This document shows positions 23,641 to 45,928 of a DNA stretch of 64,000 bases, one piece after another; positions within the stretch are counted from its first letter, which is position 1; each line of letters starts with the position of its first letter. Source of the stretch: Bordetella sp. FB-8. GTDB taxonomy: Bacteria > Pseudomonadota > Gammaproteobacteria > Burkholderiales > Burkholderiaceae_B. The stretch is from contig NZ_KB907784.1 of assembly GCF_000382185.1 (NCBI RefSeq), positions 2,381,633 through 2,445,632 on the forward strand, given 5' to 3'. The translations under genes were made by a program, and so were the position numbers. The notes below the pieces were generated by a model. That model did not search any database and had not been told where the DNA came from. It saw nothing but the letters and a program-made list of their open reading frames with translations.

Positions 23641-24293
23641 TGCGGAGGGGCTTCCTTCATTTGGAGGCGGGCCGCGCCGGGGTCGCGCGATGCCAGCTGC
23701 TTGAGGTTGGCTTGCGCGTCGGCGTAGCCGGGGTCGACCTGCAGCGCCGTGCGCAGCGCTGCGCCAGCCTGCTTCAGCTTGCCCTGCCGGACATAGAGCG
23801 CCGCCAGATTGTTCCACGGTTCGGGCAGTTCGGGAAAGCGAATGGTCATGTCCTTGTAGATCGCGACGGCCTGGTCGATGCGGCCCAGCCCGACCAGCAC
23901 GCGCGCATGCTGGAACATGAGCTGCACGTCGGTGCCGGGCTTGCCCTGGAGCTGGGCCTGGCGCCATTCGATCAGCTTCAGGGCGCCGGCGTAGTCGCCC
24001 CGGTCGATCAGGGTTGCGATGTGATCGGTGATTTGCGACGGCGTGGGCTTGAGCCGGGTGTCGACATCGGGACGCAGTTTGTCCATTTCCTTGGACAGCC
24101 ATTGCCAGCCCTGCTCCGGCGGGTAGGGGTCCAGCGTCGTAAGACGGGAATTGTCGACGAGGACGCCGCCGCCGCCCATGGACTGGGCCTGGGCGGCCTG
24201 CGGGCAGATTGCCAACGCGGCCAGCGTGGCGGCGATGGACATGGCCAGCGCGGCAAGTCGGAAACGCGGCATCGGGATCATGGCTATGGGCAT
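23637..24293 (-). CDS. Exported tetratricopeptide-repeat protein
   Basis: About 218 aa, with a signal peptide ([29 protein letters not shown]). At least two TPR units are visible near the C-terminus ([40 protein letters not shown]). The start is uncertain: ATG codons at 24293, 24281 and 24272 all lead into the signal. The stop overlaps the cyclophilin start, so both are translated together. TPRs mediate protein contacts; a scaffolding role in the periplasm is an inference. It is divergent from cysS. Confidence 0.82.
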
Positions 24294-30146: not shown

Positions 30147-30240
30147 GGAGACATGGCCGAGAGGTTGAAGGTACTCCCCTGCTAAGGGAGCATGTGAGCT
30201 AAAACTTGCATCGAGGGTTCGAATCCCTCTGTCTCCGCCA
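30147..30240 (+). tRNA. tRNA-Ser (GCT)
   Basis: The acceptor stem GGAGACA pairs with TGTCTCC, the anticodon GCT lies at 30181-30183, the long variable arm typical of tRNA-Ser is present, and CCA is encoded at 30238-30240. A TAGAAT -10-like box lies at 30127-30132. The 3' end is the apparent integration site of the island that follows, whose integrase gene begins 70 nt downstream. Confidence 0.96.
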
Positions 30241-30246
30241 GCTTTC

Positions 30247-30294
30247 TTTAAGGTCTTGATTTGTCAGGACTCCTAGGTAAATCAAGACCTTAAA
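30247..30294. repeat. 16-bp perfect inverted repeat at the island's left edge
   Basis: A 16-bp arm (30247-30262, core AAGGTCTTGATTT) is repeated inverted at 30279-30294 (core AAATCAAGACCTT) around a 16-nt spacer. It starts 7 nt after the tRNA CCA and ends 16 nt before the integrase start codon. It may be a recombinase/excisionase binding site in attL, a terminator for tRNA-Ser, or an operator for the integrase gene. Confidence 0.75.
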
Positions 30295-30310
30295 AGCGAA
30301 GTTGATACAC

Positions 30311-31765
30311 ATGAGTGCTACACAGACTCCCAAGGAGAACCCTGTGTGTACTCATCTCCACAAGCGGTCCAACGGCGTTTACTACTTCCGCCGTCGCGTC
30401 CCTCTCGATCTTGTCGAGTTCTTCGGCAAGTACGAATTCAATGAATCCCTGAGCACGAAAGACCGGCGCACTGCCGAGGTTGCCTGCCGCAAGAAATCCA
30501 TAGCGACAGATGCGATATTCGCCAAGGCTCGGGCGATGATGCTGGAAGAACAGGCAACGCCCGGCCCCAAGCCCCAGGTCAAGCCTCTGACGCCTGAGCA
30601 AGAGCGGGCGCAGTGGGAGGGCGAGCAGTGGGCTATTGAACAAGTCGCCACGGACAACGCATTCGTTGACGAGATACGCGAAGACAAGGCGAATCGTCGG
30701 GAGGCGTACAGGTCCGTTATGGCCTTCACGCAAGCTATGGGCCTTGATATGCCTGCGGCTGACAAAGAGGCCCTACAGTCGATCTTTGCGCGGCAGGAGG
30801 GGGAGGAGTCCAAGCCCGCCGATAAGCCCGCTGGCAAGGCGTCAGGCCCGACCCTCAATGACATCCTCGATAAGTGGGCCAGGGAGCGTAAGCCCGCTGC
30901 GAAGACCGTAGCCCGCGCCCAGCGTACCCTGGATGCACTCACAGCAGCGTCAGGCGTCATCCTTGCGGCCAAGGTCGAGCGGCGTCACGTCTTGCAGCTC
31001 AAAGACTCGCTCGTGTCCAAGGGGCAGACAGCCGCAAACATCAACGTCCAGCTTGCGACGATGGGCACGGTGTTCAATTACGCCGTGAACAACGACCTGG
31101 GCATGTCGGCCAATCCGGCCAAGGGCGTCAGTGTTACCGACAAGGTGCGGGCCAGGGACAAACGGGACGCCTTCGACTTAGCGGCCATGCAGGCGATCTT
31201 CGGTAGCCCGGTCTACACGCAGCACGAGCGACCCCGAGGCGGGGGAGGGGAGGCCGCGTACTGGCTTCCCGTGCTGGCTCTGTACACCGGGGCACGTATG
31301 GAGGAGTTGGCGCAGCTACGGCCCGAGGACGTATACGAGGAGCGTTACCAGGACATGCACGGCAAGGATTGCACGGCCTGGGTTATGCGCTTCGTGAACA
31401 ACGAGGCCGAGGGCCAGCGCGTCAAGAATGAGGGCAGCGAGAGGCGCATCCCCGTGCATGCCGAGTTGATCCGTCTAGGCTGGCTGGATGTTGTCCGGGC
31501 CGCGAAGAAGGCGGAGAGCAAGCGGATATTCCCTGAGCTGGTGCCCGACGTGGACGGTAAGGCGTCCGGCAATTTCTCCAAGTGGTTCGGTCGTTACCTG
31601 CGCAAGGTGTGCGGCGTGACAGATATCAGCACGTCAAGGCGCTGGTGTGCATGTTGCTGGGATGGTGATCGGGCAGGCTGCCCTCTCCCCGACGCTGCCG
31701 CGTTCTCGGGAGGGCCGCCACGGGGGAAAACCAGGGCGCGGCGCGGGCGCGAACCTCACGGATGA
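30311..31765 (+). pseudogene. Tyrosine integrase, C-terminus lost
   Basis: The protein resembles P4-type/DUF6538 integrases: an N-terminal domain (THLHKRSNGVYYFRRRVPLDLVEFFGKYEF), a SAM-like core-binding domain (about 175-260) and the start of the catalytic domain with the first arginine (YTGARMEELAQLRPEDV). After KVCGVTD (about 31622) homology stops. The expected HxxR, H/W and nucleophile Tyr boxes are absent and the last 45 or so codons are low-quality Arg/Gly-rich sequence running into an IS. It should be inactive, which would fix the island in place. Confidence 0.85.
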
Positions 31766-32735: not shown

Positions 32736-33564
32736 CGTAAGCCAGGCTGTTACGGATCAGGTGAACGATGCAGGTCTGCGGGGTGGTTGCCGGGAACACC
32801 GCCGCCAGCGCATCGGGCAGCCCCTTCAGGCCGTCAGTGACGGCAATCAGGATATCGTTAACGCCTCGGGTTTTCAGATCGTTGAAGACCTTCATCCAGA
32901 ACCTGGCACCTTCGGTATTTTCAATCCATAGACCCAGAATGTCCCGGGTGCCGTCGGCCAGAACGCCTAGCGCCAGGTAAACCGCTTTGTTGCGCACCAC
33001 GGCATCTTCACGGATCTTCACGCGCAGAGCGTCGAAGAACACGACCGGATACATCGGTTCGAGCGGCCGGGCCTGCCACGCCGTGACTTCGACCATGACT
33101 TCATCGGTGACCGTGCTGATGAAGTCCGGCGAAACTTCCGTGCCGTATTGCTCGAGCAAAAAACCCTGGATTTCTCGCACCGTCATGCCTCGGGCATACA
33201 TGGCGATAATCTTGTCATCGAACCCGGTAAACCGCCGTTCGTGCTTAGCGATCAGAATAGGATCAAAGCTGCCGTCACGGTCTCGCGGCACCTCGATGCG
33301 CAGCGGGCCGTCTTCGGTCAGCACCGTCTTGGCGCCTTTGCCATTGCGCTGGTTAGTCACCGATTCCGGTTTGGCCATGCCAGGCTTGTAGCCCAGGTGG
33401 TGACTCATCTCGCCTGACAGCGCCCTTTCAATCAGCGCCTTCTTCAGCGCCATGACTGTGGCGTTGATCTCGGCGGCCGTCTTCGGACCGTCGCCGAGCA
33501 GCTCAAGCAATTCGGCAGGTAGGGTCGGCAGTTCTGCCAACGGGGTCTTCGGCTTGCGGGGCAT
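32701..33564 (-). pseudogene. IS256 family (Mutator type) transposase, C-terminus lost
   Basis: About 285 codons of a Mutator-type transposase: the N-terminal MSHHLGYKPGM region, the first Asp in YPVVFFDALRVKIRED and the second in ILIAVTDGLKGLPDALAAVFP. The protein breaks at NWKERKALAAA, where the Glu-containing C-terminal 100 or more residues should follow; the junction lies in the shared sequence TGCTGCTGCCAG (32701-32712). The upstream element end is near 33620. It is non-functional. Confidence 0.88.
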
Positions 33565-33620
33565 ATCCTCTCCTTGGAGACATGTTATGCCCTGAACACG
33601 AAATTACTGATAGACCCCTT

Positions 33621-34089: not shown

Positions 34090-36171
34090 TCAGATAAAGC
34101 CGATGCGTTGCCTGATGCCACTGACCTTCAGGGCACACTCTGCCAGCAGGGCAGCAGCGAAATCGTGTGCCGTATTGAGCCGGTGAAATCTGGACTGCCG
34201 GATGACGGCGGCGAAATCCCCCGGAGTCAAATTGCGCAAGGCTTGTACCGACGCCAGATCGCTCTCACTAGGCTGAATATCCATAGCCGCGCAATGCCTG
34301 GTAAACAGGGCTTGGGCCTGATCCGGGCGCAAGTGATCGAACTTCACTTTCAGGTCGAAACGCCTTAGCGAGGCTTCGTCCAAGTCATCCATTAGGTTGG
34401 TCGAGGCCACAAACACGCCGGGAAACTCCTCCATCTGGGTCAACATCTCGTTGACCTGCGTCACTTCCCAGCCATGCCGCGCGCCGCGCCGATTCTGCAG
34501 AAAGCTGTCGACCTCGTCGATCAGCAGTAGCGCCTTTTCCCGCTTCGCGTCGCGAAAGGCGCTGGCGATGTTTTTCTCGGTCATCCCAACCCAAGGCGAA
34601 ACCAGATCAGACACCTTGGTGGCGTGCAGCGGAACGCCGAGCCGATCGGCGAGATAACGGCCCAGTGCTGTTTTGCCTGTACCTGGTGGGCCATAGAAGC
34701 ACACGCGGCCGGAACGCGTCTGGATCAGCCCTTCGATTATTTGGTCGAGATTGACATTCGCATGGATGAAGGCTGGATCGTAAACCTCAGGCAAGCGCGC
34801 TGGATCGTGCCTGGCGACGAGACGCAGACCTTGCGCCTCCAGACTGTCCGCGATGAGCATGTTCATCGTGTCGCTAATTTCCTGTACGCTCAGCTCGCCT
34901 TCGATGCTGCGCACCACCGAAGCCGCCCGCGTTATCACCGCCGGGGAGAGATCCTGGGATTCGGCCAGGCGCAGCACTTCATGCTCGCTCAGCAGCCCGT
35001 CACAGGCCGCACGGATAATGTTCGTTCGCGTGGCCTTGGGCGGAACGGGCATTTCCTTGACCATGTCGAAGCGACGAAGAAAAGCCGGGTCCATGCAGTA
35101 CACCGCGTTCGACAACCATAGGGTGGGGATGGGGTTGCTTTCCAGCATGCGGTTCATCCAGGCCTTGCGCTTCTCGGCGGTACTGCGCTTGCCAAGCAGG
35201 CTGGCTCCGTCGTTGAATACATCCTCGACCTCGTCGAACAGTAGTATGGTGTTCTTCTGTTTGGCGAACAGACACTGCGCTGCCCGATACGAACGCAGAC
35301 GATCCTCTCCCTCTACGGGGTCGCCGTCGCTGTCCTCGCTCGATATCTCGAACAATTCGCAGCCCATATGGCGCGCGATCGCGCGGGCGAGTTCGGTCTT
35401 GCCCGTACCTGGCGAACCGTGCAGCAGGATGTTCACACCCTTGCGCCGCGCTTTTACCGCTTCATTCAAATACGCCGAAAGCACCCGAATGAATGAAGAG
35501 AGATGCTCATAACTAGCCAAGTCCAGCTTGGCCGGGTCGGATGGCATCACCACGTCGCGCAGCAGATTGTGCATGTCGATGGGAGCGCTGAAGACTCGGT
35601 CGGCAAAACCCCGCGACAGAAGATCGATCTTGGACTCGAAGCGATGCGAAGACGAACCGTCGACCGACATCAGGCCGGATTGCGCCAGCAGGCCTCGGGG
35701 GCTCAGCGCTTCGGCGACGTCCTGTTCAGACAGATTCAGCGTGCTTGACAGAAAGCTGATCAGGCGCGACGCATTCATTTCACCGAAGAGATTTGCGATG
35801 TTCATTAGCGATGCATCCTGATTCGCCATGATTGCGAATTCGAGTAAGCGGCAGTCGACCTCGGACAGTCCCACTACCTCGGTCAGTCTGGCGATGTTTG
35901 CATGCAGCGTATCGGGCACGCGCAAACCGGCGCTCGACTTTTCCGCGGTCTCGTATTGTCTTTCCAGCGCCTTGCGGACGGCGACTTCATTAATGCCGTC
36001 CTCGCTGTCCAGCCAGCGCTCCAGGCCGAGTTCGCGTGCGAGTCGATCATCGGAAAAGCCGCGCCGGCCGCGAACGAAGTCCTTGTAGAGGCCCACCGGA
36101 ACGAGAGCGCGCAAAATCCACAATTTTGTGATGGGTGCTATTTCGGATTTTTTCAAGCCACGTCCACGCAT
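34090..36171 (-). CDS. Tandem AAA ATPase
   Basis: A 693-aa protein with a helical N-terminal region (about 1-200) and two AAA modules. Module 1 has Walker A GSPGTGKT (252-259), Walker B ILLFDEVED (309-317) and FLRRFD (365-370). Module 2 has GPPGTGKT (494-501), LLLIDEVD (548-555) and SLRRFD. Both sites look competent, suggesting a hexameric remodelling machine of ClpB/p97-like layout but with an unrelated N-terminal part. I do not recognise a named family. It follows the beta-helix gene by 11 nt and precedes the cREC gene. Confidence 0.85.
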   Translation of the reverse strand: MRGRGLKKSEIAPITKLWILRALVPVGLYKDFVRGRRGFSDDRLARELGLERWLDSEDGINEVAVRKALERQYETAEKSSAGLRVPDTLHANIARLTEVVGLSEVDCRLLEFAIMANQDASLMNIANLFGEMNASRLISFLSSTLNLSEQDVAEALSPRGLLAQSGLMSVDGSSSHRFESKIDLLSRGFADRVFSAPIDMHNLLRDVVMPSDPAKLDLASYEHLSSFIRVLSAYLNEAVKARRKGVNILLHGSPGTGKTELARAIARHMGCELFEISSEDSDGDPVEGEDRLRSYRAAQCLFAKQKNTILLFDEVEDVFNDGASLLGKRSTAEKRKAWMNRMLESNPIPTLWLSNAVYCMDPAFLRRFDMVKEMPVPPKATRTNIIRAACDGLLSEHEVLRLAESQDLSPAVITRAASVVRSIEGELSVQEISDTMNMLIADSLEAQGLRLVARHDPARLPEVYDPAFIHANVNLDQIIEGLIQTRSGRVCFYGPPGTGKTALGRYLADRLGVPLHATKVSDLVSPWVGMTEKNIASAFRDAKREKALLLIDEVDSFLQNRRGARHGWEVTQVNEMLTQMEEFPGVFVASTNLMDDLDEASLRRFDLKVKFDHLRPDQAQALFTRHCAAMDIQPSESDLASVQALRNLTPGDFAAVIRQSRFHRLNTAHDFAAALLAECALKVSGIRQRIGFI

Positions 36172-36182
36172 GGTCGTGCTCC

Positions 36183-36860
36183 CTATTGCAAGATCGTAAA
36201 GCCGTTTCGCGAAATGGAAAGATCTCCTCCCAGGTCTGCCGTGCCTGAGAGAACGAAATTTCCGTAGATCTTCGTCCGGCCGTGTACGACAACGCTTTCG
36301 TACACCCGAGCGTTGTCGTAGATGTGAGCCGACTCGTGGATTTCAGCATCCCCGAATACACGAGCATTACCCGAAACCTTCGCCTTACCATGGATCCGTG
36401 CGTTACCTAGGATTTGAGCGTTGTCCATGACTTGAGCACTGCCATAGACCTCTGCTTGGCCATACACCTGGGCATTACCCGCAATTACTGCATGTCCATG
36501 AACTAAGGCGTCATCAAAGACCTGGGCGTTATCTTTGATTTGGGCGTTTCCATACACCTCGGCCAAGTCCACCGAGGCGTCACCCAAGATTTGCGCGTTA
36601 CCGTGTACCCGTGTATTGAAAGCGGCGCGGGCGTTTTCGCTGATCCTGGCCTCGCCGTAGACACGCGCATCGTCGTAAACCCACGCGAGGCCTTCGGGAT
36701 CAAGGTTGCGCTCGCTCTCCAGGTAGCCACCCAAATCGCCGGGAAATACTGACTGTCCCAACTGCATGAGCGCTCGGATCCACCGCAAAATCGTCCCGTC
36801 TTCGAACTCGATCGTGTCGGATTCGATGAGCTCGTATTTATTGTTCGTATGGGTGACCAT
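36183..36860 (-). CDS. Hexapeptide-like beta-helix repeat protein
   Basis: A 225-aa protein. After about 60 N-terminal residues (IESDTIEFEDGTILRWIRAL...GGYLESERNLDPEG) come about 20 short repeats of the type (V/I)xGNAxV(Y/F)GxA, with runs such as VYGNAQIKDNAQV and VSGNARVFGDA; these should fold as a left- or right-handed beta-helix. Related repeats occur in prophage and plasmid proteins. The ATG at 36860 has AAGGAG 6 nt upstream and is preferred to 36893. It is first in the operon with the tandem AAA and cREC genes. Confidence 0.8.
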   Translation of the reverse strand: MVTHTNNKYELIESDTIEFEDGTILRWIRALMQLGQSVFPGDLGGYLESERNLDPEGLAWVYDDARVYGEARISENARAAFNTRVHGNAQILGDASVDLAEVYGNAQIKDNAQVFDDALVHGHAVIAGNAQVYGQAEVYGSAQVMDNAQILGNARIHGKAKVSGNARVFGDAEIHESAHIYDNARVYESVVVHGRTKIYGNFVLSGTADLGGDLSISRNGFTILQ

Positions 36861-36942
36861 GTCATTCTCCTTATGCAGACGAAGATCAAGCATGCGAATG
36901 ATTTTTCACCGTATGCTGTAAAGACATTGTTGCTGCAAAATG

Positions 36943-36957
36943 AGACATTTAATGTCT
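36943..36957. promoter_or_regulatory. Palindromic operator site 1 (RGACA-N5-TGTCY)
   Basis: AGACA-TTTAA-TGTCT, a perfect 15-bp palindrome in the 203-bp region between the divergent beta-helix and 110-aa genes, 83 bp upstream of the beta-helix start. It shares its arms with three other sites in the island, and is the likely binding site of the WYL regulator. Confidence 0.72.
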
Positions 36958-37001
36958 TTGATTGGGGGGGGCAGCGACATGAGAGTGGGTGTGCTATTTA
37001 T

Positions 37002-37016
37002 GGACATAAATTGTCC
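37002..37016. promoter_or_regulatory. Palindromic operator site 2 (RGACA-N5-TGTCY)
   Basis: GGACA-TAAAT-TGTCC, in the same divergent promoter region as site 1, 45 bp apart, and 48 bp upstream of the 110-aa gene start. Two sites on one intergenic region could repress both directions at once. Confidence 0.75.
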
Positions 37017-37063
37017 TGATTAGAAGGTAAAACCAGACCTATTACCTTCGATTGGAAAAAATC

Positions 37064-37396
37064 ATGGAAACAATAATTCGGCAAGGGGATGTACTTCTTA
37101 TCGGCGCCACAGGCCTACCAACGGATGCTATTGACGTGACACCTGCGCAGGGACGCGTCGTTCTGGCACATGGTGAAGTCACGGGTCATGCTCACGCGAT
37201 TTACGACCGAGGCACGGAAGTCGAACCTACGGTTAGGTTGTGGGAGGCGGGAGCAGAGCGATTCCTGCAGGTATTGGTCTCGGTGCCGCTACAGCACGAA
37301 GAACACACGGAGCTTTCGCTGCCTGTTGGTGTCTACAAGTTGCCCCAACAGGTCGAATACGACGGTCCTGTCCTACTGCGTCGTGTTGAGGACTGA
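37064..37396 (+). CDS. Small conserved protein, partner of DUF6745 gene
   Basis: A 110-aa protein. It starts METIIRQGDVLLIG and has a central VVLAHGEVTGHAHAIYD, a small mainly-beta protein; I know this pattern only from uncharacterised proteins. The His-rich GEVTGHAHAI could bind a metal. The frame is open to a TTG at 37052, but the ATG at 37064 is the usual start. The stop is 4 nt before the DUF6745 start, so the two are certainly co-translated. Operator site 2 lies upstream. Confidence 0.72.
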   Translation: METIIRQGDVLLIGATGLPTDAIDVTPAQGRVVLAHGEVTGHAHAIYDRGTEVEPTVRLWEAGAERFLQVLVSVPLQHEEHTELSLPVGVYKLPQQVEYDGPVLLRRVED

Positions 37397-37400
37397 CATC

Positions 37401-38924
37401 ATGCGTCAACGCATTCGGAACAGATCCATTGCAACGGGTTCAGTCACGCGTGTGGAAAGAGACGCGTTGGAAAAGCTTGCCTCAAAATGGCGAGCTAATG
37501 CCTTATCTACGGTGTCGGTGGATGCTTCGGGCGCTATTACTCTGGTCAAAGCCAGGTATCGAGTGAGCGGTCTGGGAGAACCCAGTGTGGTTGTGGTTTC
37601 GTCTCCATTCGTCATGGCCATTGTGGCAGGGGCTATAACGGGAATTCTGTACGCTGAATGTACTGGTGTCAGATCGATGCATGACGCTCGACGGTTTGGT
37701 ATCGAGCCCGGTAGCCGGGTCTTGGCAAGGTCACAACGACAGGTGATGACTGTGCCACCCGTTGAAGCCAAAACTGAGCAGTCATCTCCTGAAGGGGCTT
37801 CCCCCCTGGGTTACGACGTGGCGGCTGCTATCAACATGGCTAGGCGAAGCATCCCTAGATTTGGCAATGAATCTTGGTTGCCACCGGGTGCGACGAGAAT
37901 GAATTCCTTCTGGAGTGAAGGCTGGCAACCGGCACAGGCGATGGTGAAGGACATGAGGCTTGCTGAAATTTCAGCATTGAATGATCCGAGTGTGCTCAAA
38001 GCGCTGCATGACGAAGCGGCAGACGCAATCTCCATGCTTGCTGAAAATATGCAGCTTTATCACGCCAATAGGCAAGTGAATCTCCAAATAGAAAGTCATA
38101 ATCTGGCTTTCTCCCAGCCCGTGGAGATGCTCAAAACCCTGTTCCAGAATCTAGGGGAAGTCTTCGATATTTCACCGCAATTGCTGAGGGCGTACTGGAT
38201 GCGCATTCCCTATCAGGTCAATTTCGGCAACTTTGTAAGCGATGAGGCATTTTTTTCAGAAGCAATGCACGAGGTATTCGGTATTGCGGATTCAAAGACC
38301 GAAGAACAAAAGGCATGGGAGGCCTATTGCTTGGGTGCCGGCATATGCCTGCCCTTCGAGCAGTTTTGTGTAGTGAGTGATCGTCCAGCGCGAATTAGCA
38401 TTGATGAGAGTGGACGGCTGCACGATGACGGCGATGCAGCTATCCAATGGAGGGATGGCCTGCGGATGCACTATTGGCACGGTACGTTCGTTCCAGGCCG
38501 TGTGGAGCATTTTGTAAGCGATCCTAAAAGCCTGACTACTCGGGATATCGAAGCCGAGCAGAATGCTGAGATGCGTCGGTTGATGCTGGAGATTTATGGC
38601 CTGAAGAGATATGTGCTTGATACCGGCGCACATGTAATCGACGTGATTCCAGAGGATCATTGCATAGTAGGACTGCGCACCGCATGCTTACTGAAGAAAA
38701 GCATGGGTCGCGGCGACAGCCCACTGTATTTTGTCAATCTGCTAAATAGCACACCTGAACCGGACGGCACGCGGCGACGATATCTGCTGCGTGTGGATCC
38801 TGATGCGTACGATGGCGAGGCCGCAAGAAATGTCCACGCCGCTGCAGCGTCTACTTGGCGTAACGCTGACGGGAGTTTGGTATTCGATAATTGGCTCGAC
38901 TACATGCCTACAATCGAGTCATGA
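37401..38924 (+). CDS. DUF6745-like protein
   Basis: A 507-aa protein. The C-terminal half carries the phrases I associate with DUF6745: AIQWRDGLRMHYWHGTFVPGR, AEQNAEMRRLMLEIYGLKRYVLD and LNSTPEPDG...YLLRVDPDAYDGEAA. The middle (about 180-340) is helical, the N-terminal third is not recognised and includes a hydrophobic stretch (VVVVSSPFVMAIVAGAITGIL). No catalytic motif is apparent. It ends 14 bp before the convergent WYL regulator gene. The family assignment is from memory; the function is unknown. Confidence 0.68.
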   Translation: MRQRIRNRSIATGSVTRVERDALEKLASKWRANALSTVSVDASGAITLVKARYRVSGLGEPSVVVVSSPFVMAIVAGAITGILYAECTGVRSMHDARRFGIEPGSRVLARSQRQVMTVPPVEAKTEQSSPEGASPLGYDVAAAINMARRSIPRFGNESWLPPGATRMNSFWSEGWQPAQAMVKDMRLAEISALNDPSVLKALHDEAADAISMLAENMQLYHANRQVNLQIESHNLAFSQPVEMLKTLFQNLGEVFDISPQLLRAYWMRIPYQVNFGNFVSDEAFFSEAMHEVFGIADSKTEEQKAWEAYCLGAGICLPFEQFCVVSDRPARISIDESGRLHDDGDAAIQWRDGLRMHYWHGTFVPGRVEHFVSDPKSLTTRDIEAEQNAEMRRLMLEIYGLKRYVLDTGAHVIDVIPEDHCIVGLRTACLLKKSMGRGDSPLYFVNLLNSTPEPDGTRRRYLLRVDPDAYDGEAARNVHAAAASTWRNADGSLVFDNWLDYMPTIES

Positions 38925-38938
38925 GTAGATCAAGAGGG

Positions 38939-39964
38939 TTAGTTGTAAAGCTTGTGCATCGCCTCAATCTTTTCTGCAAATTCCGTTCGCAAGCGCTTGG
39001 GTGATATCACCTCGATCTGTGCGTCATGCGACAGCACCCACCAACGAAAGCGCATGCTTGGTACAACCGTGGCATGAATGGTCACGCTGCCGTCCTTGTG
39101 TCGCTTAACCTGTTGATCCTTGGAAATCGGGGTTTCCTGTAGGAGTTGCGTCAGAAAGCCGCTAACTCGCAAAACGACAGTCGTTGCTTTCTCTTCGAAG
39201 AACTCCATCGCCCGATCTTTCTCTATGTATTCGGTCAAGTTGAAGTCAGGCGGATAGGAAAAACTTTCATCATCAACTTTTGCGCTGGCGATTCGATCCA
39301 CGCGATAACGTGCAGGGTTGGGCACAAAGCCGTCTTTATAAAAAGTCTTGGCTACGAGGTAAAGCAGACCTTCGGCGCTTTCGACTAAGCTCAGGGGCAT
39401 AAGCGTATAGGCTTGTGGCTTGTCGATGGATCCCGGTTTGCGATACGTAATCTTCAAGAGCCGTTCCGTGAACAAGGCGTTGGTAATCGGGTAGAAAACC
39501 TTGTCATCAAGATTGGGGCGAATAAGCTGGAATCCTCCCCCGACCATGGCGATCTTCAGTGGCCAATTGGCGTATTGCTTTTCGCGTGCATCGTTGGCGT
39601 GCTTGAGCCGAGTGGCAGCCATGTCAAATAGGCCTTTGAGCGTTTTCTGAGCCAACTCAGGTAACTGGTGAATTGAATAGCGCTGCAGAATTTGCAGGGC
39701 TAGTGCTTCGTCCAAGCCCATGGCCCCTTTGTTGATTCCGGTGGCGCCGGCTTTGCGTTGCCATTCAAGTGTGCGCCCAATTTCCTGGCCATCGACTAAA
39801 TTTTCTTCTTCCAGTGCTTGTAGTGCTCGCACGATTTTCTTGGAATAGGGGACCTCATGGCCCCGCTCTTTCAATTGCCGGATGAGTTCGGATGTAGGCA
39901 TCCAAGGAGGCGATGAGTTCTTGTCAGGCAGCAGCGACAGAATGAATTGATTGAGAGTCGACAT
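38939..39964 (-). CDS. WYL-domain transcriptional regulator
   Basis: A 341-aa regulator: an N-terminal winged helix (about 1-60, with PWMPTSELIRQLKERGHEVPYSKKIVRALQALEEENLV), a linker, a WYL sensor domain (about 155-235; ITYRKPG...TLMPLSLVESAEGLLYLVAKTF, then PARYRVDRIASAKV) and a WCX-type C-terminus (about 255-335). This is the layout of BrxR/CapW-type repressors, which bind inverted repeats near defence genes. Operator site 3 lies 24 bp upstream of its start, which suggests autoregulation. It is divergent from the SIR2 gene. Confidence 0.9.
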   Translation of the reverse strand: MSTLNQFILSLLPDKNSSPPWMPTSELIRQLKERGHEVPYSKKIVRALQALEEENLVDGQEIGRTLEWQRKAGATGINKGAMGLDEALALQILQRYSIHQLPELAQKTLKGLFDMAATRLKHANDAREKQYANWPLKIAMVGGGFQLIRPNLDDKVFYPITNALFTERLLKITYRKPGSIDKPQAYTLMPLSLVESAEGLLYLVAKTFYKDGFVPNPARYRVDRIASAKVDDESFSYPPDFNLTEYIEKDRAMEFFEEKATTVVLRVSGFLTQLLQETPISKDQQVKRHKDGSVTIHATVVPSMRFRWWVLSHDAQIEVISPKRLRTEFAEKIEAMHKLYN

Positions 39965-39987
39965 GAGGAAATTTTTATATTGATAAT

Positions 39988-40002
39988 GGACAACAAATGT
40001 CC
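39988..40002. promoter_or_regulatory. Palindromic operator site 3 (RGACA-N5-TGTCY)
   Basis: GGACA-ACAAA-TGTCC in the 86-bp gap between the divergent WYL regulator and SIR2 genes. It lies 24 bp from the regulator start and 48 bp from the SIR2 start, so it can control both. This gap is the natural place for an autoregulatory site. Confidence 0.78.
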
Positions 40003-40050
40003 GAGTCTTAATGAATAATAGCTGCCCTGTCTTGCGGTGGGAAGATCACC

Positions 40051-40890
40051 ATGTCAATTCAAGAAAAAGCCAAGCTTGCGGCACAGTGGATACAAGAGGC
40101 GTCTGTCATCATGATTGCTGCGGGTGCGGGAATGGGAGTGGATTCCGGGTTGCCAGATTTTCGGGGGGCACAGGGGTTGTGGACAAAATTTCCGGAATTG
40201 AAGGAACTCAACTGGGGGTTTCAGGATATCGCCTCACCTAAGGCGTTCAGGGAGCATCCATACCTGGCCTGGAATTTTTACGCCAAGCGGTTGGATTCCT
40301 ACCGTCGAACGACGCCGCACGCAGGGTTTGAGATTCTTTTGCGTTGGGTGGCCCTCACCACTCAGGGGCATCGTGTTTTCACGTCCAATATCGATGGTCA
40401 ATTTCAGAAAGCAGGCTTTGCCTCCCATCAGGTTTTAGAGGTTCATGGCAGCATACATAGGCTTCAGTGCCTCAGACCTTGCCGCGATGACATATGGGAT
40501 GCCGATGTGTATCAACCCAAATTCTGCGTTGAAGGAAATCTTCTCTGCCCGCCGCCTACTTGTCCGCATTGTGGCGGTCTGGCCAGACCTCATGTCCTGA
40601 TGTTTGATGATTGGGGATATATCGACGGACCAACGATGCAGGAGGTGTCGGCGTTTAATGTTTGGGGATTCAAGCACAAAAATGAATTGCTTGTCATCGA
40701 GTTGGGAGCTGGTAAAACGATCTCTACGGTCCGGAGGTATGGCGAGCGATTTGCGCATCGATTCATTCGGATTAATCCCAATGAATGGGGAGTGCCCAGC
40801 GGGAAGAGCCGCATGGGTATTCAAGGCGGTGCGCTGAGCGTGTTGCAACAAATCGATGCCGAGCTTATGGCTCTGAGAGATCAGAGATAA
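40051..40890 (+). CDS. SIR2 family NAD-dependent protein
   Basis: A 279-aa sirtuin-fold protein. The NAD site is GAGMGVDSGLPDFRG (25-39), followed by SNIDGQFQKAGF (N113, D115) and the catalytic His132 in EVHGS. Zinc ligands are C140, C144, C171 and C174 in order. This resembles a true deacylase more than the bare SIR2 NADases of Thoeris or DSR systems, so NAD depletion is not certain. The context (WYL regulator, nuclease genes) suggests a role in defence. The ATG at 40051 is the first in frame. Confidence 0.88.
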   Translation: MSIQEKAKLAAQWIQEASVIMIAAGAGMGVDSGLPDFRGAQGLWTKFPELKELNWGFQDIASPKAFREHPYLAWNFYAKRLDSYRRTTPHAGFEILLRWVALTTQGHRVFTSNIDGQFQKAGFASHQVLEVHGSIHRLQCLRPCRDDIWDADVYQPKFCVEGNLLCPPPTCPHCGGLARPHVLMFDDWGYIDGPTMQEVSAFNVWGFKHKNELLVIELGAGKTISTVRRYGERFAHRFIRINPNEWGVPSGKSRMGIQGGALSVLQQIDAELMALRDQR

Positions 40891-41035
40891 AGATTGTTAA
40901 ACGCTTGCCCGCTTCAGCGGCAATCGGGATGGCAGGAGTACTGTTGGTTCATTCAGCGGTTTTTCGGTAGACGGCAATACCGGGCATTGTGATAGCCTTT
41001 TCATCTACAGAAAGCGACATCATGACATCGGTAAG

Positions 41036-41050
41036 AGACAGATACTGTCC
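41036..41050. promoter_or_regulatory. Palindromic operator site 4 (RGACA-N5-TGTCY)
   Basis: AGACA-GATAC-TGTCC lies in the 209-bp gap between the SIR2 and DUF2779 genes, 49 bp upstream of the latter. Same arms as sites 1-3. Another GACATCATGACATC direct repeat lies just upstream (41018-41031) but is not the same pattern. Confidence 0.7.
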
Positions 41051-41099
41051 ATGATGGAACATACACTGCAATTCCTGTTAGTTAGCCACGGAACTACAC

Positions 41100-42584
41100 A
41101 TGAAGGCACTGTCTAAGTCCAAGATCATCGCCTACCGCCAATGCCCCAAACGGCTGTGGCTGGAAGTGCATCGCAAAAACTTGCTGGACAACTCCGCTAA
41201 CACGCAGAAAATCATGCAGGCCGGCCATGAGGTCGGCGCAATCGCCCAACGGCTATACGACCCCAAAGGGAAAGGGGTGCTGCTGACCGCACAGGAAGAT
41301 GGCTACCAATTTGTATACGACCGTACCCGCGAGTTCCTGCAATCAGATCAACCTATCTTTGAGGCAGGCTTTACCATCGGACGCGCTTTGGCTTTTGCGG
41401 ACATCATGCTGCCTACTGGTCGTGGTGCCAACCGCGGGTGGCGCATGGTGGAAGTCAAATCCTCCACTAGTGTCAAGAACTACCACCTAGATGATGCAGC
41501 CGTGCAAGCTTTCATCGCCTTGGAGTCGGGTGTCCCGCTGAAGGCAATCGCCCTGGCGCACATTGATAGTTCGTGGGTGCATCCCGGGGGTAACGACTAT
41601 GCTGGACTGCTGATTGAAGAGGACGTCAGTGAATCGGCTTTTTCCCGCAGCGATGAAGTGCGAACCTGGATAGGCGAGTCGCAGGAAATTGTCGCCTTGG
41701 ATGCGGAGCCTGAAATCAGAACTGGCAAGCATTGCTCAGACCCTTTTGATTGTGGTTTCCATAATTACTGCATCAGTCAAGAGGCACAGGCGGAATATCC
41801 GGTGCAATGGTTACCAGGCAGGTGGAGCCAAAAGCTGAACTCCCTGGTTGATGATGACGGCATCAAAGATATGCGAGATGTGCCAGATGATCTGCTTAAC
41901 ACCAAACAACTGCGTGTGAAGCAGGTGACGCTGTCTGGGAAGCCTTATTTCAGCAAAAAAGAAACCGTAGCGGCCTTGGTGGGCTACAAATTCCCCGCGT
42001 ACTTCCTGGACTTCGAGACGATAAATTTCGCCGTGCCGATCTGGAAAGGTGTGCGCCCCTATCAACAAGTACCTTTTCAATTCAGTGTGCACCGGCTTGA
42101 TCGAAAATGGGAGGCCACACATGATGGTTTCCTGGATTTGTCCGGGAATGATCCATCCCCTGCGTTTGTTGCTGCCTTGATTAACAGTTGTGGCAAGTCT
42201 GGTCCGATATTCGTCTACAACGCGGGTTTTGAAAGTGGTCGCATCAAGGAACTAGCGGAACGCTTTCCGAAACGCAGACAAGAACTGCTGGCATTGGTGG
42301 GCCGCATTGTTGACCTATTGCCCATCGTGCGGGATCACTACTATCACCCCAGCCAGCAAGGAAGCTGGAGCATCAAGGCCGTATTGCCCGCACTATGCCC
42401 TGAACTGAGCTACGAACAACTGGATGGTGTGCAAGATGGTGGCATGGCAATGGATGCCTATGCAGAGGCTATTCACCCGAATGTTTCGCCCGAGAAAAAG
42501 ACGGAGCTGGAATCGCAGCTTTGGAAGTATTGTGAACTGGACACGTGGGCGATGGTGAAGTTATGGGAAGCGTTCAACGGTTGA
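41100..42584 (+). CDS. DUF2779 protein: Cas4-like nuclease fused to DEDD-type exonuclease
   Basis: A 494-aa protein in two parts. The N-terminal half looks like a Cas4/RecB-type nuclease: a cysteine in YRQCPKRLW (C15), the D101...E118-V-K120 catalytic set (FADIMLP, MVEVKSS) and three more cysteines C212, C218 and C224 that could hold an Fe-S cluster. The C-terminal half (about 295-494, DUF2779) has DFETI (D304, E306), NAGFESGRIKEL and ELDTWAMVKLW (D481), an RNase H-like exonuclease pattern. Both active sites look complete. Operator site 4 lies upstream; the DUF262 gene follows after 58 nt. Confidence 0.82.
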   Translation: MKALSKSKIIAYRQCPKRLWLEVHRKNLLDNSANTQKIMQAGHEVGAIAQRLYDPKGKGVLLTAQEDGYQFVYDRTREFLQSDQPIFEAGFTIGRALAFADIMLPTGRGANRGWRMVEVKSSTSVKNYHLDDAAVQAFIALESGVPLKAIALAHIDSSWVHPGGNDYAGLLIEEDVSESAFSRSDEVRTWIGESQEIVALDAEPEIRTGKHCSDPFDCGFHNYCISQEAQAEYPVQWLPGRWSQKLNSLVDDDGIKDMRDVPDDLLNTKQLRVKQVTLSGKPYFSKKETVAALVGYKFPAYFLDFETINFAVPIWKGVRPYQQVPFQFSVHRLDRKWEATHDGFLDLSGNDPSPAFVAALINSCGKSGPIFVYNAGFESGRIKELAERFPKRRQELLALVGRIVDLLPIVRDHYYHPSQQGSWSIKAVLPALCPELSYEQLDGVQDGGMAMDAYAEAIHPNVSPEKKTELESQLWKYCELDTWAMVKLWEAFNG

Positions 42585-42642
42585 ACTCGATGCCTACCTT
42601 CGAACTGAGTTGGAATTATTTTTTATATTAATAGGAGTTGTC

Positions 42643-44625
42643 GTGGGTATCCAACAGGCATCATTAATAACAGTTAGAGACCTTCTTGAGCAGAAATACA
42701 AATTTATCATCCCCGAATATCAACGAGGCTTTGCCTGGGGTAAGGCTCAGTGGGAGGATTTATGGAATGATGCCCAGACCTTTGTTGATCGAAGCATCAC
42801 GGCAGATCACTTCTCGGGATCGTTGATGCTGCGATCCATAGATGAAAAGGTCGAAGTAGTGGATGGGCAGCAGCGGCTTACAAGTATTAGTCTGCTTCTT
42901 CGCGCACTGGGCGCGCCGGTGTTAGATATTGAATTCCAAAATAATGAACCATTGCAGACATATTTCAACTATTACGCGCGCGGCGACCAGTCTATTGATG
43001 CCCGATTGGGGCAACATCGGTCGTTCTATGCGCGTAATGTGCAAGATGCTGCAAAATTTTTCGAAGGTAAAGTGCAAAATTTACCATCTGATCAGCACAA
43101 AAAATTAGTTCAAGTATTGCTAGACCGATTCAAGATGTTCATGTTGACTCTATCGCCGGAGTTTAATGTTCATGTTACGTTTGAAACCATCAACAATCGA
43201 GGGCGAGATCTTTCAATTCTAGAAAAATTAAAAAATAGGCTGATCTACCTATGTTCTACCACTGCTGATCAGGCGGTTGGTTCTCGCGTTGCCGATCGGG
43301 TGCATAGCACATGGAAGACTATCTACTATTGGCTAGGAAAAGGAGATACTCTGCTTGATGACGATGAGTTCTTGAGAGCGCATGCGGATGGATGGTTCCG
43401 CAAGGAGAAGCGGGCGGAGTGGTTAACTACTCAATTATTCGATGAGGAATTTCACCTTTCTGCCAATATTTCCCCGGAAAAAATAGAAGAATATATTACG
43501 AATCTAGAGCAACTATCGGCATGGTGGTATTACCTCAATCATCCCGATGAATTGCCTTCTGAAATAGAACGGATGCTGAACGATTGGCAGCGTGCAAGTT
43601 CTTTCAGTACTCGTCCACTTTTGCTATGGGCATTATGGCGTGCGGCGCAAAATGCTCCTTCTCCGGATGTTATCAGCGATCCTAAGAAGTATGGCCATGC
43701 TTGGCTAGAGCCGTTTAAAGAACTGGTTTTACAGGCTGAGAGGTTCTCTGTGCTTGTGCTGCTTGGAAACGAACGCCAAGCTAACGTAGGCCAGAGTGCT
43801 TTCAATCGGCTTTCTTATCTGCTTGGACATCCTGATGAGACTGTAAATGACGGTTTTTCAGCTGATGCGCCCAAGACGCCAGGGGCTGCGGTAAGCTATG
43901 TCGCGGCTTATGTTAAAGCCTTGATAGATAGTCAACCAGATGAAGAAGGTCAGTTCCCAGATGCTAGGTTTCCTTGGGAAGGTTTTTTCACAACGGCAAA
44001 AATGATTACAGCGATTACCGAGCGACTGCAAAACAATGGGTTTTATAGCTGGCTTTTTGGCAAACTAATAATTAATGGCTGGGAAGAAAATTTGCGTGGA
44101 GAATCTGGGAGGCCCGTGAAAAAATCCTGGGAAAAATTCTCGTGGGATGATTCGGTCGAACACGTCTACCCCCAGACTCCAATTGATGGGTGGGAGAACA
44201 GTATTGCAATTGATGGACGTACTTCTCCTCGGGTCAAAAACGCGATGTTGGGTTCGATAGGGAATTTGTTGCTGTTGTCCTGTCCGTTAAATGCTCGGGC
44301 GAAAAACTATCTTTATACCAGAAATGATGATCCGCGCAAGGATAAAAGGGAGATTTATAAAAGTGGCAGTTATTCTGAGTGGCAGATTTCAGTAATTTGC
44401 CCTAGTTGGAATGCTGCAACGATCGCCGCGCGAGGTATCGCAATGATGCGCTACGCTCAGAGGCGTTGGCAATTCGAGTTGGTGAAGGAAGATGAAAAAT
44501 TGACCCGCTGGTTGCCAATTCTATTTGGTGATGCCGCTGAAAAGCTTGCTGGGATTCATGGGGGGGCAATTGATGGACGTGTGCTCAACCCGTTGGTTGA
44601 GCGGTTCGAGACCATACGGCCGTGA
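42643..44625 (+). CDS. DUF262/DUF1524 protein (GmrSD-like endonuclease)
   Basis: A 660-aa protein with an N-terminal DUF262 domain (IPEYQRGFAW at 23-32, VVDGQQRLTS near 73-81, FETINNRGRDLS) and a C-terminal DUF1524 HNH-like nuclease (VEHVYPQ, H507, then GNLLLLSCPLNARAKN). This is the fusion seen in type IV, modification-dependent restriction enzymes such as GmrSD, which may use nucleotide hydrolysis at the DGQQR motif. The GTG at 42643 follows AGGAG by 6 nt and is better than the TTG at 42610. The gene is A/T-rich against the backbone. Confidence 0.87.
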   Translation: MGIQQASLITVRDLLEQKYKFIIPEYQRGFAWGKAQWEDLWNDAQTFVDRSITADHFSGSLMLRSIDEKVEVVDGQQRLTSISLLLRALGAPVLDIEFQNNEPLQTYFNYYARGDQSIDARLGQHRSFYARNVQDAAKFFEGKVQNLPSDQHKKLVQVLLDRFKMFMLTLSPEFNVHVTFETINNRGRDLSILEKLKNRLIYLCSTTADQAVGSRVADRVHSTWKTIYYWLGKGDTLLDDDEFLRAHADGWFRKEKRAEWLTTQLFDEEFHLSANISPEKIEEYITNLEQLSAWWYYLNHPDELPSEIERMLNDWQRASSFSTRPLLLWALWRAAQNAPSPDVISDPKKYGHAWLEPFKELVLQAERFSVLVLLGNERQANVGQSAFNRLSYLLGHPDETVNDGFSADAPKTPGAAVSYVAAYVKALIDSQPDEEGQFPDARFPWEGFFTTAKMITAITERLQNNGFYSWLFGKLIINGWEENLRGESGRPVKKSWEKFSWDDSVEHVYPQTPIDGWENSIAIDGRTSPRVKNAMLGSIGNLLLLSCPLNARAKNYLYTRNDDPRKDKREIYKSGSYSEWQISVICPSWNAATIAARGIAMMRYAQRRWQFELVKEDEKLTRWLPILFGDAAEKLAGIHGGAIDGRVLNPLVERFETIRP

Positions 44626-45037: not shown

Positions 45038-45928
45038 ATGACCGAGAAGACCGCGCGTACGATCAAATATTCAATGATCGGAGATATTCGAAAGGGTGAC
45101 CTTTACGCACTACTGTCGGTTTGTACAGATCATGATCTAGAGCCGCTCCTCTCGCTAATCAAAGACCGTGTTAGCAGCTCAATCGAATCATACGATCAGT
45201 ACAAGAAATCCCCCTCACAACCGTCTCGGTACTACCGGGCAATTGGTGACGAGATCCGAAGGTTTGGCGGTAATACGATGGCCAATGCGGTGCGTGGGGG
45301 CGGTCCTGACTACAGCGAGATCGTGAGTGACGTCTGCAAAAGATTTGGTGTTCCCTTTGACAAAGGCAATATTGTCAAGGCCGAATCGGCGTTGCTGAAT
45401 CTGTATCTTGACGTTGAATGGTCGATACTCCCTCATTCCGAGCGCGATGCCGCAGTGGAAAAGGCGCGAGCCAAGGTGCTAGCCGAAGCGACAAAATTTT
45501 CGAAACTGATCAAGGGCAACGCAGCCAAAGGACCGTTTGCGATATTCGGGCTTCCGGGAGTGCCCGTACTCACAACCCTTTCGCTTGCCGATCCCGCGTA
45601 CCGCGTTACGGCGCCCTGCGTGCTGCATATTGCGTACTTGCGTCGCCTAGTCCTGGAATCGATAGCGTCAAACTCCACCGCCGTGTTCGAAAACGCTTCG
45701 GCTGTACCGCGGTCTGTGACGCGCTCCGCAACATTGATCGTCAGCGAGACAGGCGCAGCCCCCCTAGTTTCACTTACGCGCATTTCCGATCCCAGCATCG
45801 AAGACTGGCCGCATGAGGGCAGTGACACGGGTATCAGCAGACTTAGTCTGCATTCGCGCACGCGCCGCGGTTTTGCAACTCGCCGTGACTCTGGGCCTAA
45901 GCGAACGCCTCAAAACTACGCGGCTTGA
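45038..45928 (+). CDS. UPF0174 (YaaW-like) protein
   Basis: A 296-aa protein. Residues about 60-215 match the E. coli YaaW family: RYYRAIGDEIRRFGGNTMANAVRGGGPDYSEIV..VCKRFGVPFDK and near the end AYRVTAPCVLHIAYLRRLV. The C-terminal 80 residues are beyond the usual family end and may be a specific extension, or a read-through after a frame change. The function of the family is unknown. It lies 28 bp after an IS3 relic and 164 bp before the IS3/IS66 element, so it is confined by mobile elements. Confidence 0.75.
   Translation: MTEKTARTIKYSMIGDIRKGDLYALLSVCTDHDLEPLLSLIKDRVSSSIESYDQYKKSPSQPSRYYRAIGDEIRRFGGNTMANAVRGGGPDYSEIVSDVCKRFGVPFDKGNIVKAESALLNLYLDVEWSILPHSERDAAVEKARAKVLAEATKFSKLIKGNAAKGPFAIFGLPGVPVLTTLSLADPAYRVTAPCVLHIAYLRRLVLESIASNSTAVFENASAVPRSVTRSATLIVSETGAAPLVSLTRISDPSIEDWPHEGSDTGISRLSLHSRTRRGFATRRDSGPKRTPQNYAA

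Follow-up and report, generated by a model that had tools for sequence, protein, structure and literature searches.

WYL regulators and the Bordetella island

Regulators carrying a WYL domain have been described both as activators and as repressors of transcription, and the descriptions used here follow excerpts of the respective papers. DriD of Caulobacter crescentus is an activator of an SOS-independent DNA damage response that is responsive to single-stranded DNA. Its consensus site is ATACGAC-N7-GTCGTAT, and the promoters under its control show a constant distance between site and -10 element, a -35 position at the centre of the site and poor -35 boxes (PMC12340889, preprint). BrxR and CapW are described as WYL repressors of defence genes that bind palindromes (PMC9122601, PMC9122588). 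The work on BrxR covered two boxes within one island and a wide association of such regulators with defence islands (PMC9122601), and in the excerpts covered BrxR and CapW repress one or few operons. Here, a stretch of 64,000 nucleotides from Bordetella sp. FB-8 (contig NZ_KB907784.1, positions 2,381,633 to 2,445,632; the whole stretch is termed the window) was analyzed, in which four palindromes are found in the promoter regions of a genomic island that encodes a WYL regulator of 341 amino acids (38939..39964, minus strand). The palindromes are predicted to be operators of this protein and to unite the island core, eight genes in five transcription units, into one regulon.

In the BrxR/CapW class, a WYL-WCX regulator with a palindromic site is encoded next to defence genes, and the locus studied here has this arrangement too. 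With BrxR of Acinetobacter and E. fergusonii the locus shares a WYL regulator in a defence island and palindromic operators with a 5-nt spacing; the E. fergusonii island also contains two boxes and a GmrSD enzyme. However, bacteriophage exclusion (BREX) genes are not among the genes identified in this island, the described BrxR is a repressor, and both boxes, -35 and -10, are canonical in the Acinetobacter promoter. CapW, which belongs to the cyclic oligonucleotide-based antiphage signalling system (CBASS), likewise regulates a defence operon and binds a palindrome, but its sites overlap the -10 element and repress, and the genes identified in this island include no CBASS genes.

Four palindromes in the promoter gaps of the island core

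An exact scan of the window for RGACA-N5-TGTCY yielded four sites (36943-36957, 37002-37016, 39988-40002 and 41036-41050) and no others, just as a sequence-only reading of this stretch had reported. Its estimate that the eight core bases should occur once per 65 kb is arithmetically correct, and its placement of the sites within about 500 bp of promoter DNA was confirmed, with three gaps (36894-37063, which holds two sites, 39965-40050 and 40891-41099) that total 465 bp. Dinucleotide shuffles of the window contained the pattern 0.16 times on average and once at most, and none of 100 shuffles reached four. In the complete genome (4.08 Mb) eight places were found, four in the island, confined to 4.1 kb, and four elsewhere, as compared to two for a reversed control pattern; a partial check located three of the four off-island sites within long open reading frames and one overlapping the start of an open reading frame. 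A weight matrix trained without the window ranked the four palindromes first to fourth in the window (scores of 23.0, 18.9, 17.2 and 14.6), with operator 2 as the best-scoring site. The four palindromes are real and occur far above chance.

Operator 1 (AGACATTTAATGTCT, 36943..36957, minus strand) is the predicted driver of the beta-solenoid/AAA operon, with a -10-like element on the minus strand and none on the plus side, and operator 2 (GGACATAAATTGTCC, 37002..37016, plus strand) is the predicted driver of the operon for a 110-amino-acid protein and a DUF6745 protein, so that each site of this gap appears to belong to one of two divergent promoters. Operator 3 (GGACAACAAATGTCC, 39988..40002, assigned to neither strand) is located between the WYL and SIR2 genes, and operator 4 (AGACAGATACTGTCC, 41036..41050, plus strand) precedes the DUF2779 gene.

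An origin by chance, or as a dispersed repeat such as the end of an insertion sequence, can be considered practically negligible. It would fit the weakest palindrome, whose score of 14.6 falls short of 16.0, the 5% point of the training sites, and barely exceeds the next scores in the window, 14.5 at 33575, a site with one core mismatch beside a transposase reading frame, and 13.6 at 24067. Yet no shuffle reached four sites, and the related loci described below share only the operator letters and a -10-like element. If one mismatch was allowed, 21 matches were obtained in the window versus 17.9 expected, and only the exact core was therefore regarded as informative. The one-mismatch sequence (33575-33595) is located 11 bp ahead of the open reading frame of a Mutator-family transposase that starts at 33564.

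Conservation of the operator around WYL relatives

Relatives of the WYL protein were collected by a protein search (n = 11) and by a pattern scan of one genome per species over 84,980 species, which provided 47 loci with a total of 899 kb of DNA. Most of them belong to Paraburkholderia, Caballeronia, Burkholderia, Pandoraea, Achromobacter and Cupriavidus, next to one Gallionellaceae and a few others, and near-copies such as L054-L056 are not independent of each other. No relatives were detected in the viral contigs searched, and 29 plasmid matches all remained below 60% identity. The conservation of the palindromes in homologous islands, which the sequence-only reading had named as a check, was evident: GACA-N5-TGTC occurs 101 times in the 47 loci, and 63 of these copies fall in the interval from -1500 to +2600 relative to the WYL match start. 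GACA half-sites with other spacers from 0 to 12 occur only 2-17 times, and 11 other orders of the half-site letters occur 1-45 times in total and 0-11 times near the WYL gene. Among all 256 half-sites, GACA ranks first near the WYL gene (63), followed by GCGC (58), TCGA (44) and CGCG (37). Sites thin out with distance from the WYL gene: up to 1 kb away there are 2.96 per 10 kb, between 3 and 6 kb 0.46-0.72, between 6 and 9 kb 0.12, and past 9 kb 0.39.

With the window included, 94 of 105 sites were intergenic according to a coding-score gene caller, versus 14.9% of the DNA; a first caller based on the longest open reading frame had placed 38 of 105 sites between genes and was superseded. An intergenic site was present in 38 of 48 loci, and 24 of the 48 contain sites in at least two gaps. 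The symmetrised consensus of 88 distinct intergenic sites is TYGGGACA-N5-TGTCCCRA, and in the related loci the operator letters and the -10-like element alone are common to otherwise unrelated flanks. Ten of the 47 loci contain no site (L041, L060, L062, L067, L068, L069, L071, L073, L077 and L078), among which L067 has one-mismatch versions; the contig of L062 measures 4.8 kb, and in L077 a fragment of the gene is present. The distant relatives L023, L024 and L076 contain a variant palindrome, TGCGACA-N5-TGTCGCA, which is nearer to the CGAC-N7-GTCG of DriD.

Single sites are not specific, as 181 of the 268 family genomes contain the stricter variant GGGACA-N5-TGTCY; the full pattern was found in 8-23 places in each of nine genomes, and the control pattern in 6-12. 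The weight of the evidence therefore rests on the clustering near the WYL gene and on the composite unit described below. Taken by sequence comparison, one WYL regulon that covers eight genes is well supported. The sequence-only reading had postulated such a unit with nine genes, which is one too many: the JukA-like gene at 45038 has no exact site ahead of it and follows a gap with an apparent insertion-sequence remnant (judged by eye), and the regulon was accordingly limited to eight.

A potential link between regulator and site was found in the recognition helix. Site-bearing rows of the alignment have K or R at position 42 and R at position 46, while the siteless Cupriavidus loci L068, L069, L071 and L078 show K42 changed to E or D and R46 to Q or H. 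These changes were confirmed in a second alignment for three of the four rows, and those three keep the residues of the ligand pocket. In the tree, the Cupriavidus proteins adjoin the site-bearing L072 (support 95/78), and the Cupriavidus WYL protein may have a different target. In these four loci the WYL gene is found in a near-constant setting without operators. Against a link through the helix, both helix residues are kept in 5 of the 9 siteless rows, and the presence or absence of sites requires six changes on the tree (mean of 8.5 after shuffling, with 6 of 500 shuffles as low).

These data also bear on the idea that the palindrome and the -10 unit are recognized by a different factor, or by an alternative sigma factor, and that the WYL gene is a passenger. 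Single sites in most genomes of the family would agree with such a factor, and binding by the WYL protein is a prediction. Nevertheless, the sites are densest around the WYL gene and absent in the clade with the altered helix, and no gene family other than WYL is present in all 48 loci, as is to be expected of the bait. This explanation is judged to be highly improbable.

A fixed distance between operator and -10-like element

All sites were oriented to their gene and aligned by the operator centre, and a strict test was applied that accepted TATAAT-like hexamers with at least four of six matches, including A2 and T6. A -10-like hexamer starting at +19 from the operator centre was found for 52 of 119 gene-facing sites (window included). 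The next offsets were -25 (15 sites), which is largely the mirror image contributed by divergent genes, and -6, -4 and -2 (14, 10 and 9), which lie inside the operator. When the window was excluded, 48 of 112 gene-facing sites had the +19 hexamer, while the other offsets from 12 to 45 averaged 0.58 with a maximum of 2, and 1,000 shuffles of the flanks gave an average of 1.16 and a maximum of 7. Sides that face no gene carried the hexamer in 12 of 61 cases (window excluded). At least one unit of operator and +19 hexamer was present in 29 of the 38 downstream sequence clusters.

In this sequence layout the operator occupies the place of the -35 box. A spacer of 17 bp puts the -35 position at the CANNNN of the operator, where 0, 1, 2 or 3 matches to TTGACA were counted in 15, 23, 9 and 1 of 48 cases; with a spacer of 16 bp, 11 of the 48 show 3-4 matches.

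The five transcription units of the window have the following hexamers at +19: AACAAT for the beta-solenoid/AAA promoter (36926..36931, minus strand, from operator 1), TAAAAC for the promoter of the 110-amino-acid protein (37028..37033, plus strand), AATAAT for the SIR2 promoter (40014..40019, plus strand, from operator 3), AAAAAT for the WYL gene (39971..39976, minus strand, also from operator 3) and TACACT for the DUF2779 promoter (41062..41067, plus strand, from operator 4). They match the consensus at 4, 4, 5, 4 and 4 of six positions, and four of the five pass the strict test; TAAAAC, whose final T is absent, fails. Two of the seven gene-facing sides in the window have no hexamer at +19, and the side of operator 4 that points away from the gene also has a -10-like hexamer, CATGAT. 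The composite pattern of operator and -10 element occurs four times in this genome, each time in the island, and is present in 51 of 268 genomes. It is located at WYL genes in G001, G033, G035 and G102 and was not found in G188 and G028, two genomes with WYL relatives. A promoter scan by consensus performed at chance level (3 found, 4.2 expected).

Operator 3 is a special case, as its centre lies 31 bp before the start codon of the WYL gene; the same distance was found in L032, L033 and L045, and a distance of 30 bp in L072. Two hexamers might serve the WYL gene. If AAAAAT was used, the WYL transcript would start at about the start codon. If TATTAT (40015..40020, minus strand) was used, a hit of the chance-level promoter scan that precedes the operator on the WYL strand in both the window and L032, the WYL transcript would begin within the stretch covered by the operator in these two loci. 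As the operator would then lie over this start, negative autoregulation combined with activation of the divergent gene is suggested.

Activation or repression by the WYL protein

The domain organization and kinship of the WYL protein point to DriD. Pfam assigns WYL and WCX domains to it, and further matches to the WCX domain were not found in the whole genome. An AlphaFold2 model (mean predicted local distance difference test of 83.3, predicted template modelling score of 0.57) contains helices 3-53 and strands 57-70 of a winged helix-turn-helix, helices 84-137 of a three-helix bundle and then the WYL and WCX domains, which is the order of DriD. A search of solved structures with the WYL family profile identified DriD as best match (7tzv with 2e-21; chains from 2e-21 to 7e-21), followed by PafBC (2.5e-18) and BrxR (0.0094), and no CapW chain at an E-value of 0.01; the match to DriD spans WYL and WCX without the helix-turn-helix. 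By this comparison, DriD is the closest solved relative in sequence. Structure comparison of the predicted model with VIA-align also placed the C-terminal domain of DriD first (13.8), but full DriD (12.4), CapW (12.4), PafBC (12.2) and BrxR (11.5) tie, and this comparison alone does not decide; DriD and PafBC were aligned over 257-280 residues, CapW and BrxR over about 160.

The likeness to DriD extends to the sites. DriD also controls several promoters, its operator has the same GAC-N7-GTC core and spacing (GGGAC-N7-GTCCC here), and its sites are centred on a poor -35 box at a fixed distance from the -10 element, a distance that the excerpt of PMC12340889 gives as constant, without a value. 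The outer operator letters differ (ATACGAC in DriD, GGGAC here), and DriD controls scattered repair and division genes, whereas the genes considered here form a clustered island of probable defence genes. With the activator SiwR of Mycobacterium smegmatis, the locus has in common a palindrome in the promoter, which for SiwR lies between the -35 and -10 regions, and potential binding of single-stranded DNA, but SiwR controls one adjacent operon of DinB-like genes. PafBC, a mycobacterial WYL activator, shares the kinship in WYL and WCX and an R-x-x-R pair; it acts as a heterodimer and depends on polymerase for binding to its DNA site, in contrast to the single gene and palindromic site found here.

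As the layout agrees with that of DriD, with the site at -35 and a fixed distance to the -10 element, activation is the simpler reading, and the fixed spacing together with the missing -35 box favours it as well. The WYL protein is thus rather likely to be a DriD-like activator of unrelated cargo operons and not a repressor. In the proposed mechanism, a homodimer would bind TYGGGAC-N7-GTCCCRA, with the centre of the site some 31 bp ahead of the transcript start and thus at the place of the -35 box. It would recruit RNA polymerase, as in DriD, to promoters in which a -10 element is present and the -35 element is poor, whereby unrelated cargo operons would be turned on together. At operator 3 the dimer would activate the SIR2 gene and probably cover the start of the WYL gene, which would limit its own synthesis. 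Sequence comparison provided the sites, their conservation with the WYL family, their loss in the clade with the altered helix and the fixed -10 spacing; we infer a dimer and its binding, activation, autoregulation, a ligand and a role in phage defence.

The sequence-only reading had proposed that the WYL protein represses all of these operons, in the manner of BrxR or CapW. The operator set over the island core, its conservation around WYL relatives and the lone WCX protein all agree with its regulon; the repression does not find support, given sites at -35, exactly 19 bp from a -10-like hexamer, in the layout of DriD. In a repression model, the operator over -35 would block polymerase until a ligand, single-stranded DNA or a nucleotide, releases the protein. 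A number of points weigh in favour of this model. A spacing of 5 nt likewise separates the half-sites of BrxR, whose site in Acinetobacter (-51 to -27) extends over a -35 box (PMC9122589), so that the -35 position alone does not decide. BrxR and CapW themselves are repressors of defence genes, their chains are among the best structural matches, and operator 3 is placed where the WYL transcript start would be covered. The conserved pocket residues discussed below do not tell activators from repressors. On the other side, a repressor would not need a base-exact -10 spacing, yet this spacing recurs in 29 of 38 downstream clusters; the fixed letters of the operator leave a poor -35 box, so that the unbound promoters should be weak; and the sequence kinship is with DriD and PafBC and not with BrxR. 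Taken together, pure repression is considered unlikely.

A mixed control, with repression in the absence of a ligand and activation in its presence, overlaps both readings and would be tight as well as inducible. Operator position and the autoregulatory placement are compatible with both states, and DriD and SiwR are reported to bind target DNA without ligand. Basal activity should be low anyway with such a poor -35 box, though, and mixed control is seen as a doubtful alternative to a DriD-like activator.

The likely trigger of the predicted activator would be single-stranded DNA bound in the WYL domain. Among the relatives, Y202 and R224 of the pocket never vary, and 43 of 46 retain R221. R221 and R224 were equated by motif only with the R-x-x-R pair of PafB and SiwR, which these two proteins require for binding of single-stranded DNA. 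Conservation of these residues and the requirement in PafBC and SiwR suggest that the signal could be single-stranded DNA. As CapW bound to single-stranded DNA is also listed in the PDB, such binding does not separate activators from repressors.

Proposed role in defence islands

A wider and more tentative reading, to which we give somewhat less than even credence, is that a mobile master switch of defence islands in Burkholderiales has been found, in which a DriD-like WYL activator that senses single-stranded DNA would be combined with a plug-in promoter cassette. This cassette, the operator over -35 and the -10 element at exactly +19, might have been acquired by unrelated cargo ranging from RecBCD- or AddAB-type nucleases, SIR2 and AAA+ proteins to dynamin-like proteins and GmrSD enzymes. 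Whole-island induction might then occur upon the appearance of single-stranded DNA during infection or damage. If true, a DriD-type activator of many unrelated defence operons would tie defence islands directly to the sensing of DNA damage and would account for the way in which newly acquired cargo is brought under shared control. A literature search, which left most subscription papers outside its reach, found no paper on this operator or regulon. Within the literature searched, an operator common to many unrelated cargo operons, its fixed -10 spacing and the reading as a DriD-like activator are new. The operator with its -10 element at +19 also provides a motif for the prediction of regulon members in other islands.

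Genes of the island and of related islands

The island is flanked by a tRNA-Ser with an integrase gene (30147-31765) on one side and by insertion-sequence genes on the other. For the integrase gene itself (30302-31765), Pfam gives DUF6538 and N-terminal domains only, and insertion-sequence genes then follow; within the window no duplicate of the tRNA-Ser end was found. Between 36 and 46 kb the G+C content is 47-53%, as against values of mostly 60-68% outside this segment. The beta-solenoid/AAA operon on the minus strand starts with the gene for a YdcK-like beta-solenoid protein of 236 amino acids (36183..36893), followed by that of an AAA+ ATPase of 693 amino acids that resembles IetA and CDC48 (34090..36171). 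On the plus strand, the gene for the 110-amino-acid protein (37064..37396), which has no match in the family and defence-profile scans, is followed after 4 bp by that of the 507-amino-acid DUF6745 protein (37401..38924). This start was set by eye, as the coding-score caller gave 37899, which is wrong, and the domain scan that yielded the DUF6745 match used a longer start at 37170; an NCBIfam scan of the protein gave no match. Beyond the WYL gene, the plus strand encodes a SIR2-family protein of 279 amino acids identified by its family match (40051..40890), a DUF2779 protein of 494 amino acids with a Cas4-like N-terminal part and both family and defence-profile matches (41100..42584) and, downstream in the same direction, a protein of the GmrSD family of type IV restriction enzymes (42610..44625), whose start may be the GTG at 42643. 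The JukA-like gene (45038-45928) lies at the end of the island. PADLOC detected the AAA protein (IetA), the GmrSD protein (HEC-06, Orf5, SspE, mREase_IV), the DUF2779 protein (Cas4), the WYL protein and the JukA-like gene, and gave no matches for the solenoid, 110-amino-acid, DUF6745 and SIR2 proteins. Judged from these genes, the island is a probable phage-defence island.

The cargo families of the related loci were named from scans of one or two members per cluster. SIR2 is found in 18 and the AAA family in 8 of the 48 loci; the SIR2-family gene is the commonest companion of the WYL gene and often adjoins it, as in L035, L044, L050, L054 and the window. Other loci encode RecC-, RecB- and RecD-like proteins, and a PD-(D/E)XK protein whose neighbour is one of the smaller proteins in the RecB-like cluster, a pair that we read as AddAB-like. 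Further cargo includes a NERD helicase, serine recombinases and dynamin-like Leo proteins. RecBCD-like clusters were observed in or beside the WYL/SIR2 group in L035, L037-L042, L073, L079 and L082, with operators upstream of the RecBCD-like genes in L040 and L042, and one genome has a further site upstream of a small gene, SIR2 and recC beyond the first fetched locus. Serine recombinase genes, named from a single scanned member of their cluster, likewise have operators directed at them in L036-L039, and the WYL regulator might control a recombinase there. Four loci (L048, L051, L057 and L058) have a gene that faces an operator close to WYL and belongs to a cluster identified as PAS-GGDEF, again from a single scanned member.

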